Part shown: positions 4,083 through 61,577 of the stretch, piece by piece
How the letters are laid out: the number at the start of each line of letters is the position of its first letter
Position numbering within the stretch: the first letter of the stretch is position 1
Origin: Rhodospirillales bacterium BBD 1991-14
GTDB taxonomy: Bacteria > Pseudomonadota > Alphaproteobacteria > Kiloniellales > Kiloniellaceae
Direction: 5' to 3'
Length of the DNA: 64,000 nt
Assembly (NCBI GenBank): GCA_001657395.1
Contig: LYSY01000003.1
Location: forward strand, 496,001 to 560,000
Position numbers and translations under genes: made by a program
The notes under the pieces: generated by a model
What the model saw: only the letters and a program-made list of their open reading frames with translations
Told to the model about the DNA's origin: nothing
Databases searched by the model: none

Positions 4083-5453
<1,371 letters not shown>

Positions 5454-26475: not shown

Positions 26476-26670
26476 GCGCCGCTGGTCGGCTGGCTGATCG
26501 AGGACGCGGTGAAAGGCCGCGAAAGCGCCAAGCGGTTCCTCGCGCTCAACGTCTTCATCCTGGCGGCTGCGGCCGTGGCGGTCTTCGGCTATCCGGCCCT
26601 TATCGTGATAGCCCTCGCCCTGGTGCCGACCGTCTCCGCCGGCATCTTCTGGACCACCTGGGCTTACTAG
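26476..26670 (+). pseudogene. 3' remnant duplicate of the membrane-protein gene at 22911
   Basis: This stretch is close to identical, over about 190 bases, to 23427-23618. Translated in the matching frame it reads APLVGWLIEDAVKGRESAKR, then a transmembrane pair and AGIFWTTWAY, against VPLAGWLIEDAVKGRESAKL and AGIFWTTWA in the intact gene. It has no start codon and only the last quarter of the reading frame. Changes are mostly third-position, which suggests an old duplication kept under weak constraint. Its end overlaps the stop of the HAD gene. Confidence 0.8.
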
Positions 26671-27194
26671 AGGCGAGGCTTGGACGGCGGCGTCGAAGGC
26701 GGCGGAGCCGCACCCAGCAAGCAGTCCAGGACCTCGCCCCAGCTCTCAACGCGGGTGACGGCCGGCAGGTGGCGTGCATTGGCTGCCACCTCCGCCTCCT
26801 GCGGGCGGAAGAGCAGGCGGCTGGGCACGCTTTCCAGATAGCCCAACACTTCAAGACGGTCGTCGATGAAGTGTGTGATGCCCAGGTCCTTGCAGATCGG
26901 CGCCTTCTCATGGCGCTTGCGGCAGAAGTGCAGCTGCGCAGGATCGAGCCCCGTCCGGGCATAGACCAGATGATGGCTGAGCCACTCGCGGGTGCGCGCT
27001 TCCGTGCGGGCGCCGCACTTCGAGACCAGAAAGATGTTCTCGCCGAAGCGCGCGTCAGCCAGGCGCTGCAAAGCCTCGATTGCGCCCGGCAGGGCCGGGG
27101 TCTTCAGATAGTTGTCACTGAAGAACGAGGTGTCGGCCGCGGCACTTACGCCTTCGATGATGACGCCGCCGATATCGACGCCTAAACGTTCCAT
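26667..27194 (-). CDS. HAD-superfamily hydrolase-like protein
   Basis: A 175-residue haloacid-dehalogenase-fold protein. Motif I is GVDIGGVIIEG with the nucleophile Asp7; position +2 is Gly9, so the general acid Asp is absent, as in several HAD subgroups. Motif III lysine is likely Lys97 (CRKRHEKAP), and motif IV is HFIDDRLEVLGYL with Asp111-Asp112. There is no long cap domain. GGAG precedes the ATG. It is the last gene of the slipin/tRNA-like unit, suggesting a phosphatase role there; the substrate is unknown. Confidence 0.72.
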   Translation of the reverse strand: MERLGVDIGGVIIEGVSAAADTSFFSDNYLKTPALPGAIEALQRLADARFGENIFLVSKCGARTEARTREWLSHHLVYARTGLDPAQLHFCRKRHEKAPICKDLGITHFIDDRLEVLGYLESVPSRLLFRPQEAEVAANARHLPAVTRVESWGEVLDCLLGAAPPPSTPPSKPRL

Positions 27195-27226
27195 TTCTTT
27201 TCTCCATTCATAAACTCTGCCAGCAG

Positions 27227-27274
27227 GGGGCCGGGGCCTTCTCGGGCCCCGGCCCCGCCGGCAACCCGGCGGGG
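27227..27274 (-). promoter_or_regulatory. Overlapping alternative hairpins between slipin and HAD genes
   Basis: A perfect 12-bp stem (27227-27238 with 27245-27256, 6-nt loop) and a perfect 9-bp stem (27253-27261 with 27266-27274, 4-nt loop) share bases 27253-27256, so both cannot form fully at once. Neither has a T-run. They could stabilise the slipin message or tune HAD expression. Confidence 0.6.
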
Positions 27275-27308
27275 AGCCGGCGCGCCTGACCGTCCGGGAT
27301 CTCCCCCG

Positions 27309-28451
27309 TCAGGCCTTGCGCGGCCGGATCCGCACCAGATCCTCCAGCACGCCGTCCATGCCGTTTCCGACGACGACGTTGCCGACCTTCTCGGACACCT
27401 TCTCAAGCGCCTCGAGCTCCTTCAGCCGCAGGAGGATGGGGTTGTCCTCCATCAGCTTTGCGGTGTTGAGCAGGGACCGCGTGGCCGCGGTCTCCTCCCG
27501 CCGCTTGATGACGTTGGCCTGGGCGGTCTTCTCCGCCTCGATGACCCGGTTCATCAGCTCCCGGACGTCGCCCGGCAGGATGACGTCCTTCAAGCCGACG
27601 GAAGAGACCTCCAGCCCCGCCTCGCCCAGCTTGGGCAGCAGCAGGTCTGCGATCGCCTGGTTGATGCCCAGCTTGTCGCCGAGCAGCTCCTCAAGCGTGC
27701 GCGTGCCCACCACCTGCCGCAGCGCGAACTGAAGCTCCTTGTAGAGGAAGTCCTTCAGATCCGCGGTCAGGGCCACCGCCTTCAGCGGGTCGGCGACCCG
27801 GTAGACAGCGGTGATGTTGGCCCGCAGGCCGATCCGGTCCTTGGTCAGAACCTCCTGGCCGGTCACCTCCAGGGTCTGCAGCCGCAGATCGAAGGTCACC
27901 ACCTGAATGTTCCGCAGGGCCTTCACGAAGGCGTAGCGGCCGGGCTTCAGCCGGGACTGCAGAACGCCGTCGACGTAGAGCAGGCCCACGTGGTCGGAGA
28001 CCACCTCGGCGATCGCCACCAGGTTCTTGGAGACCAGGTCCTGGGCCGCCAGCCGCGCCAGGGGCGCAACCAGCCGCTCGGGCAGAGCGATCTCCTGGGC
28101 GGCGTCGATCACCTCCAGGCTCACCGGCCGCAGCAGCTTGCCGTAGAAGGCGACGCTCCGCGGCGCCACCAGCCCGGCCAGCTTGCCGTTGGCGTAGACC
28201 ACCCCCACCTCCCCGTCGCCCATGTCGGCAACCAGGAAGTAGGTCTGAACCACCTGCGGGTGGGTCAGGTAGAGCGCCTGCAGTTCCGGCGCCTTGACCA
28301 GCGGCGCCCGCAGGTCGAGCTTCACGACCTCGATCTGGCCCTGGCCCCGCAGCATCCGGTAGACGCCCGGCTCCAGCACCTTATGGAAGGCCCGGTCCCG
28401 ATACAGGAGACCGAGCTCGTAATCGGCAATCTTCTCGGTCTTGATAACCAT
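27309..28451 (-). CDS. Slipin-family (SPFH/stomatin-like) protein without membrane anchor
   Basis: A 380-residue protein, longer than the usual 250-320 for slipins. Three related units precede the SPFH core: ELGLLYRDRAFHKVLEPGVY, then EVGVVYANGKLAGLVAPRSV, then VGLLYVDGVLQSRLKPGRYA. The SPFH domain follows (LTKDRIGLRANITAVYRVAD, then LPGDVRELMNRVIEAEKTAQ), then a coiled coil. No N-terminal hydrophobic helix is present, so it is probably cytosolic and oligomeric. AAGGAG precedes the ATG. Its leader carries two tRNA-like RNAs. I recall this anchorless type near RNA-repair genes in other bacteria; no rtcB is in the window. Confidence 0.85.
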   Translation of the reverse strand: MVIKTEKIADYELGLLYRDRAFHKVLEPGVYRMLRGQGQIEVVKLDLRAPLVKAPELQALYLTHPQVVQTYFLVADMGDGEVGVVYANGKLAGLVAPRSVAFYGKLLRPVSLEVIDAAQEIALPERLVAPLARLAAQDLVSKNLVAIAEVVSDHVGLLYVDGVLQSRLKPGRYAFVKALRNIQVVTFDLRLQTLEVTGQEVLTKDRIGLRANITAVYRVADPLKAVALTADLKDFLYKELQFALRQVVGTRTLEELLGDKLGINQAIADLLLPKLGEAGLEVSSVGLKDVILPGDVRELMNRVIEAEKTAQANVIKRREETAATRSLLNTAKLMEDNPILLRLKELEALEKVSEKVGNVVVGNGMDGVLEDLVRIRPRKA

Positions 28452-28878
28452 CGAACTACTCCTTGTTCTTCACAAATGTTTCTTTCGCCCTCGCGGAGGA
28501 CCGGAACCGTCCTTTGTTGCGCCCCGCTTCGGAGGCCGGAGAAAAGCTCCAAATGAATAACGCTGTCGGATCACCGGAAGAGCGCCGACCGCGGCTGCTG
28601 GTCGGTCCCTGCGTTCTCCCTCCCCCGCCCGGGCGGCGCCCCGGGGTGCCGCGCCACCGGCGCCCGTCCGCTCCGAAGAGCAGCGGGACAGCGGGCGACA
28701 CGGCGTGCCGGAGCGCCTGACGGGCAGGGTTGGAGAGCGCGGTGGGACCGCGCGGAAGCAGACCGCCGCCTGGCCCCTGTCCGTCACCGCCGCGGCAGCC
28801 GAAGCCACCAACGCAGGTGTCCGGATGGAGCCTGGCCCTCTTCCGGCATCCTTCGTTTCGAGATCAGCTTTACAGGCT
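28452..28878 (-). other. Leader between tRNA-like RNAs and slipin
   Basis: About 430 bases with no supportable protein gene. The long frame crossing the tRNA-like genes (28470-29069) is an artefact of tRNA sequence. A short hairpin (CAGC/GCTG) follows the first tRNA-like RNA. The slipin ribosome site (AAGGAG) is at the downstream end. Confidence 0.5.
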
Positions 28879-28952
28879 GAGTGATGGTGGGAGTCGAACC
28901 CACTACGCCTAGAGTCGGAATCTAGTGCTCTAACCTCATGAGCTACATCCGG
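28879..28952 (-). ncRNA. tRNA-like RNA A: tRNA-Arg(CCG)-like with defective acceptor stem
   Basis: On the minus strand a 74-nt cloverleaf can be drawn. The D arm is GCTC/GAGC. The anticodon arm CTAGA/TCTAG has a 7-nt loop TTCCGAC (anticodon CCG, Arg), the variable loop is GCGTA, and the T arm is GTGGG-TTCGACT-CCCAC. Only four of seven acceptor pairs form (GATG/CATC); the outer three are mismatched. The 5' end abuts tRNA-like B with no spacer. It is probably not a normal translation tRNA. Confidence 0.6.
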
Positions 28953-29026
28953 TGCCAGACACGGGAATCGAACCCGCGACCTCCGGGCACAGTGACCCGG
29001 CGCTCTCACCACTGAGCTAGTCTGGC
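28953..29026 (-). ncRNA. tRNA-like RNA B with 8-nt anticodon loop
   Basis: A 74-nt cloverleaf with a perfect 7-bp acceptor (GCCAGAC/GTCTGGC, discriminator A), a D arm GCTC/GAGC and a T arm GCGGG-TTCGATT-CCCGT. The anticodon stem CCGGG/CCCGG closes an 8-nt loop, TCACTGTG, which lacks the universal U33 in a 7-nt frame, so no standard anticodon can be assigned. CCA is not encoded in full (CC then G). A perfect hairpin (29041-29055) and a GCGGTACCGC palindrome (29031-29040) lie just upstream. Confidence 0.6.
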
Positions 29027-29193
29027 TGGTGCGGTACCGCTTCGGGAAACCCGAAACGCTGCTCGACACACGCGGGGCGCATTACGGACGCCGGGCGCGC
29101 CGGCCGGGCCTTCGGAACCCGAACCATAGAGCGGTCAAAAGTACCTAACGAATGTGGCCCCGGATCTCTCGCGAGGGATGCCTTCGTCGGTTG

Positions 29194-29220
29194 CTATGCG
29201 GTGCTTGGTGCTTTCATCAT
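29194..29220 (-). CDS. Possible 8-codon leader peptide upstream of the tRNA-like RNAs
   Basis: On the minus strand, AAAGGGAGCAGG is followed by two ATGs and a short frame reading MMKAPSTA, then TAG. The ribosome site is among the best in this area, and the frame lies 168 bases upstream of tRNA-like B in the same direction. It could be a translated leader peptide that couples ribosome behaviour to the downstream RNA. Such short frames also occur by chance. Confidence 0.3.
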   Translation of the reverse strand: MMKAPSTA

Positions 29221-59999: not shown

Positions 60000-61577
60000 A
60001 TGACCGCATCCGCAAGCGAGCCGCCCCGCCCGCGCCGCAGCCGCCGCAGCGGCGGCCGGGAGGCACGCAAGGCCCTGCGCGCGGCCCCGCTGGCCGAGGA
60101 CATCCGCCCGGTGCGCGGCGGGCTGGAAGGCGGGCGCTACCGCCCTCTGGACGACCGCGCCATGCAGCGCATTCATGAAAGCGCGCTGAAGGTGCTGGCG
60201 GAGATCGGCCTGGCCGACGCCCCGCCGTCGGGCATCGAGGCCATGACCCTTGCCGGCGCGGTCCTGGGTGACGACGGGCGCCTGCGCTTCCCGCCCGCCG
60301 TCGTTGAAGATGCTCTGGCCGCCGCCAACCGAGACGTCACGCTCTGCGCCCAGGACCCGGCCCAGGACATCAACCCCGGCGGCCGGCGCGTCTACTACGG
60401 CACCGCGGGCGCGGCGGTCCATCTGGTCGATGTGGCCCAGCGGCGCTACAGAGAATCGACCCTGCAGGACATCTACGACGCCGCGCGCATCGCCCAGACG
60501 CTGGACAACATCCACTTCTTCCAGCGCCCCATGGTGGCGCGCGACCTGGAGGATCCGACGGACCTGGACCTCAACACCGTCTACGCCTGCGTGCAGGGTA
60601 CGACCAAGCACATCGGCACCTCCTTCACCTCGGTCGCACGGGCGGAAAAGGCGCTGGAGATGCTGCACCTCTTCGCCGGCGGCGAGGCAGCCTGGCGCGA
60701 CAGACCCTTCGTCTCCAACACCAACTGCTTCGTGGTGCCGCCGCTGAAGTTCGCCACCGAGTCCTGCGAAGTGATGGAGACCTGCATCCGCGGCGGCATG
60801 CCGGTGCTGCTGCTCTCCGCCGGTCAGGCCGGAGCCACGGCGCCGGCGGCCATCGCCGGGGCGGTGACCCAAGCGGTGGCGGAATGCCTGGCCGGGCTCG
60901 TTTACGTGAACGCCATCGCCCCCGGGCATCCGGCGATCTTCGGCACCTGGCCCTTCGTCTCGGACCTGCGCACAGGGGCCATGTCCGGCGGCTCGGGCGA
61001 ACAGGCGCTGCTGACGGCGGCCTGTGCCCAGATGGCGCAGTTCTACGACCTGCCGGGGGGCTCGGCCGCCGGCATGGCCGACGCCAAGCTGCCCGACGCG
61101 CAGTCCGGCTACGAGAAGGGCATCACCGACGTCATGGCGGGGCTGGCGGGGCTGAACATGGTCTACGAGTCCGTCGGCATGCACGGCTCCCTGCTCGGCT
61201 TCTGCTTCGAGAGCCTGATCATCGACAACGACATGATCGGCCAGTGCCTGCGCTGTGTGCGCGGCATCGAGGTGACGGAGGACTCGGTCTCGATCGAGGC
61301 CATGCGCCAGGTCTGCCTGGAAGGGCCCGGCCATTACCTGGGCCACAGCCAGACCCTGGGCCTGATGCAGAGCGAGTACGTCTACCCCGAACTCGGCGAC
61401 CGTTCCTCCCCCAAAGAGTGGGACGAGAACGGCCGGCCCGACCTGCTGGCCCGCGCGACGGCGGAGAAGGAACGCATTCTGGCGGAGGTCTTCCCGCGCC
61501 ACGTGGCAGAAGAGATCGACACCGCCGTGCGCGCCGTCTTCGACATCAAGCTGCCGACGGGTCGGATGAGCCGCTAA
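60000..61577 (+). CDS. MttB-family (non-pyrrolysine) methyltransferase
   Basis: A 525-residue protein of the trimethylamine methyltransferase superfamily. An Arg/Pro-rich basic N-terminus (about 1-30) precedes the TIM-barrel core: YYGTAGAAVHLVD, SFTSVARAEKALEMLHLFAG, then GPGHYLGHSQTLGLMQSEYV. No in-frame amber codon occurs, so it is a non-Pyl member; such enzymes demethylate quaternary amines such as glycine betaine with a corrinoid protein. No corrinoid protein gene is in the window. GGGAGG lies upstream; the 3' end overlaps the AraD1-like gene by 4 bp. Confidence 0.85.
   Translation: MTASASEPPRPRRSRRSGGREARKALRAAPLAEDIRPVRGGLEGGRYRPLDDRAMQRIHESALKVLAEIGLADAPPSGIEAMTLAGAVLGDDGRLRFPPAVVEDALAAANRDVTLCAQDPAQDINPGGRRVYYGTAGAAVHLVDVAQRRYRESTLQDIYDAARIAQTLDNIHFFQRPMVARDLEDPTDLDLNTVYACVQGTTKHIGTSFTSVARAEKALEMLHLFAGGEAAWRDRPFVSNTNCFVVPPLKFATESCEVMETCIRGGMPVLLLSAGQAGATAPAAIAGAVTQAVAECLAGLVYVNAIAPGHPAIFGTWPFVSDLRTGAMSGGSGEQALLTAACAQMAQFYDLPGGSAAGMADAKLPDAQSGYEKGITDVMAGLAGLNMVYESVGMHGSLLGFCFESLIIDNDMIGQCLRCVRGIEVTEDSVSIEAMRQVCLEGPGHYLGHSQTLGLMQSEYVYPELGDRSSPKEWDENGRPDLLARATAEKERILAEVFPRHVAEEIDTAVRAVFDIKLPTGRMSR

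Follow-up and report, generated by a model that had tools for sequence, protein, structure and literature searches.

Tandem tRNA-like RNAs upstream of a predicted soluble slipin-like gene as possible baits or sensors of anticodon nucleases

We analyzed a stretch of 64,000 nucleotides (nt) from Rhodospirillales bacterium BBD 1991-14 (assembly GCA_001657395.1, contig LYSY01000003.1, positions 496,001 to 560,000; hereafter, the window), in which a slipin-like gene is preceded on the minus strand by two abutting tRNA-like RNAs, B and A (Table 1). The original prediction, made from the letters alone, described the pair as non-canonical and as heading an operon of slipin and a HAD protein, and its account of the RNAs was confirmed by covariance-model searches. 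RNA B matches the Rfam tRNA model at 60.7 bits, has a complete acceptor of 7 base pairs (bp) and an anticodon loop of 8 nt (UCACUGUG) and is labeled 'tRNA-???' by ARAGORN. RNA A, for which ARAGORN gives no report, scores 45.9 bits, a match confined to positions 4-67 of the 71-position model; it combines four acceptor pairs (GAUG/CAUC) with a normal arm whose 7-nt loop, UUCCGAC, carries the anticodon CCG. Besides this pair, the genome holds 45 tRNA genes, which carry 41 anticodon labels, Arg(CCG) among them; 44 of the 45 have seven acceptor pairs. It also encodes a second Gln(CTG)-like tRNA gene (L289, C8:87217-87287), which has the odd loop CCCTGTC and no encoded CCA.

Conservation and structure of the tRNA-like RNAs

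An initial genome scan yielded 23 slipin homologues (L001-L023); L023 was excluded from A1 for a stop within its stretch. Of 398 genomes of the phylum searched by profile, 23 carry the family, each matching at 6.2e-99 or lower; it was also found in 85 of 146 genomes of genus g15, 13 of 25 of g116, 33 of 91 of g129 and 14 of 61 of the window's order. For g15, removal of three partial matches left 82 genomes, of which 81 were used (L182 ends too near slipin). The 180 loci contain ten duplicates and thus represent 170 distinct loci; duplicates remain in the loop-form counts of g15, g129 and g116, the parser controls and sigma54-like pattern counts (n = 180) and the counts of U33 and of a purine at position 37. 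One slipin gene of one genome is present as two pieces (L147 and L148), and L069-L199 were checked by the cloverleaf parser only.

Using this parser, we identified one to three tRNA-like RNAs upstream of slipin in 163 of 170 distinct loci (173 of 180 with duplicates): two in 106, one in 56 and three in 1. Tandem triplets precede slipin in L036 and L058, both from G007. Cloverleaves upstream of slipin exceed chance, the same parser reporting one in 1/180 opposite strands, 0/180 shuffled upstream regions and 0/180 slipin coding sequences. The mimics are therefore conserved upstream of slipin orthologues, the point on which the original prediction had staked itself. The seven misses comprise two contig ends (L045 and L182), the slipin fragment L147 (tRNA-like RNAs are present upstream of L148, the second piece of this gene) and four distant homologues (L020-L023). 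As an independent check, Rfam found an upstream tRNA-like RNA in 19/19 and ARAGORN in 17/19 of L001-L019; parser matches in L051, L052 and L064 had no Rfam or ARAGORN counterpart in the same genomes' L029, L030 and L042, and parser scores were low for L019 and L108. Presence outside Proteobacteria rests on three Planctomycetes-/Clostridia-type records (L017-L019) with a single tRNA-like RNA each, and none was found upstream of a further homologue of this type (L293). Slipin matches at E 1e-30 occurred in 9 of 72,556 plasmid records; four further loci from such records, outside the 170, included one with an upstream cloverleaf, in Burkholderia. No slipin match was found at E 1e-15 among 50,697 phage records.

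The two RNAs retain different features across these loci. The predicted short acceptor of A is conserved, with at most 4 consecutive pairs in 142/163 distinct loci and 7 in only 4/163, and encoded NCCA is present in 3/163. Of 108 distinct B RNAs, 73 have seven acceptor pairs and 80 an encoded NCCA. Its 8-nt loop was rejected as a conserved feature: B loops range from 4 to 10 nt and are 7 nt long in 9/108 cases and of other lengths in 99/108.

Covariation was assessed in 19 relatives. RNAalifold recovered both cloverleaves, a 5' structured element ahead of B and a 3' hairpin after A, with two-sided changes in 31 of 59 pairs. In the structure as we wrote it down, pairing holds in 97.7% of 908 cells, and two-sided changes occur in 27 of 48 pairs, compared with a mean of 12.7 in shuffled controls (0/500 reach 27) and at most 10 with slid partners. 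Two-sided changes occur at all 7 acceptor pairs of B, and the 3' hairpin is paired in 90.5% of cells. Among 20 g15 loci, whose sequences are close, 9 of 71 predicted pairs have two-sided changes. As judged from this covariation, the RNA structure is under selection.

Further upstream, ahead of the 5' element, 17/17 loci (the window, L001-L013, L141, L144 and L148) have an in-frame micro-open reading frame (micro-ORF) of 6-8 codons, which ends in Thr-stop (ACAUAR) in 16/17. The window's predicted hairpin over its Shine-Dalgarno sequence has an energy of -16.8 kcal/mol (shuffles mean -9.3, z -2.96), and the micro-ORF may possibly be a translation-sensing leader peptide. A direct repeat like ATTCNTTWGGNNCTTT occurs on the minus strand ahead of the 5' element (29138-29153) and again ahead of slipin (28543-28558); such a pair is present in the window and in most aligned relatives, and the copies are possible promoters or regulator sites. 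Elsewhere in the window, Rfam reports PYLIS_3, the mttB pyrrolysine insertion element, at 61074-61173 on the plus strand (64.6 bits), perhaps through sequence similarity of an mttB-like gene.

Table 1 Features of the slipin locus in window coordinates
Feature	Position	Strand	Basis
Micro-ORF of 8 codons (MMKAPSTA, then stop), with Shine-Dalgarno AAGGGAG ahead	29194-29220	-	Predicted; alignment of relatives
Predicted hairpin enclosing the micro-ORF Shine-Dalgarno and first start codon	29213-29255	-	Fold prediction
Conserved 5' structured element (CUAUGGU-CGGG..CCCG, GCCGGCGCG..GUAAUG..GCGUGU)	29061-29130	-	Alignment; RNAalifold consensus
tRNA-like RNA B: 7-bp acceptor, 8-nt anticodon loop, encoded ACC 3' end	28953-29026	-	Rfam; covariation
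tRNA-like RNA A: 4-bp acceptor, 7-nt loop UUCCGAC (CCG)	28883-28949	-	Rfam; covariation
3' hairpin UCAGC-CUGUAAA-GCUGA, immediately 3' of A	28864-28880	-	Alignment; pair counts
Remaining leader to slipin start	28452-28863	-	Sequence
Slipin-like protein, 380 amino acids, predicted soluble	27309-28451	-	PF01145; hydropathy; AlphaFold2 (AF2) model and Foldseek
Putative HAD-like protein; adjoining gene outside the conserved module	26667-27194	-	Motif reading

Turnover of the anticodon loop in genus g15

Across the 81 loci of g15, the anticodon stem, T5 strand and D stem of A are identical in 81/81, and the loop takes 24 forms. On the slipin tree of this genus, the minimum numbers of changes at loop positions 34 and 35 are 31 and 26, higher than at any other of the 640 leader columns. 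The anticodon stem needs 0; third-codon sites average 5.2 changes (346 sites; maximum 30, one site at ≥25). The counts for the two positions are 29 and 24 on a tree from the leader flanks and 28 and 23 on one from leader plus slipin.

The content of the loops is also non-random. When compared with the anticodon loops of 42 tRNAs from one g15 genome, 38 of 79 seven-nt A loops are identical to a real loop, the matched tRNAs being Met CAT, Leu TAG, Leu CAG, Asn GTT, Thr TGT and Lys TTT. Shuffling of columns gave a mean of 11.3 matches and a maximum of 21 (2000 shuffles). Because related rows share loops, we added a tree simulation with independent change at each of the seven sites, which gave a mean of 11.1 and a maximum of 27 matches (400 runs) and a mean of 46.5 distinct loops (minimum 30), compared with 23 observed. 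One loop, CTCATAA, recurs, its presence requiring at least 13 changes on the tree. Given these non-random counts, the A loops of g15 behave as linked, recurring modules.

The slipin, its neighbors and RNA repair

The slipin matches Pfam PF01145 (Band_7; 103.9 bits, 1.3e-29) and stomatin chains in the PDB. As predicted, it shows no membrane anchor: hydropathy reveals no hydrophobic helix, with a top 19-residue Kyte-Doolittle mean of 1.28. The protein consists of extra N-terminal SPFH-type beta repeats, an SPFH domain and C-terminal helices, and the N-terminal segment repeats the strands of the SPFH entry (repeat 1 versus repeat 3 scores 72; shuffle maximum 37). An AF2 model (predicted local distance difference test score 84) was matched by Foldseek to stomatins, HflK/C and, more weakly, major vault protein.

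The downstream neighbor fared less well. A same-strand ORF is present where the original prediction placed a HAD protein, but it matched nothing in Pfam (E ≤ 0.001) or in NCBIfam, PADLOC or PDB sequences (E ≤ 1 each), so the HAD label is a reading of motifs. Homologues occur in two of L001-L023 (L001 and L007; two of the 23 stretches stop short of the end of slipin or run barely past it) and in 0/20 of L047-L066, and we rejected the putative HAD protein as a partner in the module. PADLOC families, a further candidate, gave no match at E values up to 1.

We searched 18-kilobase (kb) stretches of 20 genomes (L047-L066) with the Rtc proteins of Escherichia coli. All 14 of the fetched loci from other proteobacterial classes have one or more rtc genes close to slipin: RtcB, RtcA and RtcR in six (L048-L051, L053 and L058), RtcB and RtcR in two (L052 and L064) and RtcB alone in six (L047, L054-L057 and L059). 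All three genes also lie near slipin in a Rhodoferax locus (L016). The statement in the original prediction that slipins occur near RNA-repair genes was thus borne out. An rtc gene was found near slipin in 0/6 fetched loci of the window's own class (L060-L063, L065 and L066) and in none of L001-L023 other than L016, L017-L019 included. The window likewise gave no match to E. coli RtcB or RtcA at E 1e-4, so that the reported lack of rtcB holds and is typical of the class (0/6 fetched loci and none of L001-L015). Its only RtcR match (4329-5105, 34% over 272 residues) presumably reflects the general AAA+ part. A single rtcB is encoded elsewhere in the genome, on contig C9, and the 17.5 kb fetched there contain no RtcA or RtcR match.

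A sigma54-like pattern (TGGCAC..) was found in 16 of 180 upstream regions, 13 of them from g116, and in 1 on the reverse strand. In Citrobacter, rtcR is divergent ahead of slipin and a nucleotidyltransferase gene follows it. In an E. coli STEC639 record (L291, 4202-6928), a sigma54-like site precedes slipin and a nucleotidyltransferase, and the upstream RNA has a T-arm-like hairpin by eye with no cloverleaf found; a T-arm-like hairpin was likewise seen by eye upstream of slipin in Citrobacter. Of 5426 E. coli genomes, 1617 contain ≥80% of the query for this related slipin-nucleotidyltransferase locus.

Several known systems resemble this locus in part. Transfer-messenger RNA (tmRNA) and other tRNA-like domains are tRNA folds that serve outside ordinary decoding; unlike tmRNA, of which ARAGORN reports none here, the locus has two mimics with variable anticodon loops. 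Burroughs and Aravind are said to have described, in 2016, a Band-7 protein paired with a novel tRNA-like RNA in RNA-repair neighborhoods. The present loci show the same pairing, a tRNA-like RNA gene lying ahead of one for an SPFH protein; the rtc association is present in the other classes and in L016 but missing from the window's locus and from 6/6 loci of its class. No paper in the literature searched joins 'slipin' or 'SPFH' with 'tRNA-like'; the 2016 account lay outside that search, and we make no claim of a first report. What we propose as new, from sequence comparison, is the tandem arrangement of mimics, their separation from rtc genes in the loci examined from the window's lineage and a module-like turnover of anticodon loops in at least one genus.

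According to a report on Salmonella, the rsr-yrlBA-rtcBA operon couples RNA repair with the Y RNA YrlA (PMC7790460). It is alike in its rtcBA/RtcR setting and in combining a non-coding RNA that has a tRNA-like domain with an RNA-binding partner, but it uses Rsr (Ro60) and a Y RNA, whereas the present loci have an SPFH protein and near-complete cloverleaves. At gathering scores, Rfam listed no Y RNA in the window; no TROVE search was made. PaFlo8 of Pseudomonas aeruginosa is an SPFH protein encoded inside an rtcA/rtcB/rtcR locus, although the term 'tRNA' is absent from that study's main text (PMC13086221).

Possible roles of the tRNA-like RNAs

Our tentatively preferred reading is that the RNAs are tRNA mimics that bait or report anticodon nucleases and are held by the soluble slipin. 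In the mechanism that we infer, one leader transcript would carry the 5' element, then B, then A with its hairpin, then the slipin mRNA, and would be processed. B would offer a complete acceptor, mostly with encoded NCCA, and A a truncated acceptor followed by the hairpin; the mimics would not decode. Their anticodon arms would be displayed as bait or sensor to anticodon nucleases (toxins, phage-triggered or rival-delivered tRNases), and a nuclease engaging the bait would leave real tRNAs spared or have its attack reported. The slipin would form rings or cages that bind and hold the RNAs, and operons that include rtcB and rtcA could also reseal cut RNAs. The loop has changed repeatedly inside the kept scaffold, in one genus often to the loop of a real tRNA, because, we propose, nucleases differ in their target. 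One possibility raised by Hughes (2020) is that the tRNA-like YrlA RNA inhibits a nuclease by competition (PMC7790460). The original prediction had inferred a stress or RNA-damage unit with the mimics as substrate, bait or sensor; its tie to RNA repair was supported and its HAD partner was not, the role of the mimics stays interpretive, and the evolution of the loops appears to favor bait or sensor of anticodon cleavage. A bolder version, that the loops form an evolving chromosomal decoy repertoire, swapped as modules under diversifying selection and matching the tRNA-cutting toxins met, on a soluble SPFH scaffold, is possible but doubtful.

A number of results weigh against a bait or sensor role. 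When the 1725 seven-nt windows are ordered by haplotype diversity, the A loop of g15 comes only 85th, with both leader and coding windows ahead of it. As many as 25 changes are needed at some other leader columns and 30 at one third-codon site; part of the loop turnover may therefore be lack of constraint. As many as 41 of 79 seven-nt g15 loops match no real loop exactly, in a set drawn from a single genome, and U33 is retained in only 103 of 156 seven-nt A loops (duplicates included). B loops of 4-10 nt are poor mimics, and in the window's group loops equal a G000 tRNA loop in 3/19 cases for A and 0/19 for B. Other genera are less varied, with 8 loop forms in 33 loci of g129 and 4 in 13 of g116. 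The window and its nearest relative L001 differ far more in the RNAs (identity 78.9% for A and 66.2% for B) than in slipin DNA (97.2%) or the remaining leader (91.1%), but the DNA downstream of slipin diverges too (79.8%), the comparison with L007 gives 90.3% for A and 75.3% for B with 65.4% for the leader remainder, and L006 and L144 share 82.2% of A, 91.7% of B and 93.6% of the leader, only A being clearly lower; the excess divergence of A and B is thus not general. Homologues from E. coli, Citrobacter and Subdoligranulum have no upstream cloverleaf by parser or ARAGORN, rtc genes are missing near slipin in the examined loci of the window's class, and the Salmonella report describes the tRNA-like YrlA as uncut by an anticodon nuclease (PMC7790460). 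Given the contrary results on rate, the strongest functional argument is the non-random loop content in g15, not rate alone.

Among the alternatives, a cis-regulatory sensor is plausible though on the unlikely side. Here the mimics, 5' element and micro-ORF would sense translation stress or tRNA damage and control slipin (and rtc), with the cell's own tRNA-handling enzymes reading the mimics and no decoy role. All of these elements sit in the slipin leader, the micro-ORF is present in every one of the window's relatives examined, and g15 has long conserved leader stretches. According to a study of Anabaena, a trcR mutant has raised levels of rtcB, of a silent tRNA operon and of alr0740, a slipin gene that may be related to the present family, and translational stress relieves repression of rtcB and the tRNA operon (PMC10272220). 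However, the sensor alone leaves the match of g15 A loops to several different real tRNAs unexplained, and the micro-ORF count covers the window's group only.

We regard as unlikely a purely structural or processing role, in which RNase P, RNase Z or slipin lands on the tRNA shape and the loops, being unread, vary. A kept scaffold with free loops is what this predicts, B mostly keeps its encoded NCCA, and other loop columns and other seven-nt windows vary as much or more. Against this, g15 loops are less random than site-independent change would make them, in both the number of alleles (23 versus 46.5) and the number of matches (38 versus 11.1), and they recur, as CTCATAA does.

Still less probable is a bacterial vault-like particle, with a soluble SPFH protein caging a tRNA-like RNA as major vault protein does vault RNA. 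The vault (major vault protein, vault RNA and TEP1) is alike in pairing a soluble SPFH protein with a small RNA, and a study of SPFH complexes treats it as an exception with no membrane association (PMC12624060); the slipin likewise shows no anchor by hydropathy. The likeness is a weak fold match of a model only: the full model matched major vault protein at E 2.3e-10 with a template modeling (TM) score of 0.42 by query, which is low, stomatins outrank it by E value, and with the N-terminal domain alone no vault protein appeared among the 50 Foldseek rows shown or in a sequence search. As the full model matched and the domain alone did not, we keep this as a weak rival.

We rejected ordinary or suppressor tRNAs entering translation, a very improbable reading despite the tRNA covariance model matches, the U33 of many seven-nt A loops and the purine at position 37 in 152 of 156 (duplicates included): the A acceptor is short and almost never followed by NCCA, B mostly lacks a 7-nt loop, loops differ between near relatives, with 24 A loops in 81 g15 loci, and the genome has its complement of other tRNA genes. 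Decayed tRNA genes left by mobile-element integration would fit a truncated acceptor and abutting tRNAs, but have a negligible probability given the covariation in 19 relatives and the presence in 163/170 distinct loci; integrases were not searched for.

If the bait reading is true, the genome would record which tRNA-cutting enzymes bacteria face, legible in a seven-base loop, and RNA repair would gain a decoy arm. If there is a decoy repertoire, it would be a nucleic-acid counterpart of variable immune receptors. Loop swapping would also put to a direct test what tRNA-like RNAs, and SPFH proteins near rtc genes, do.

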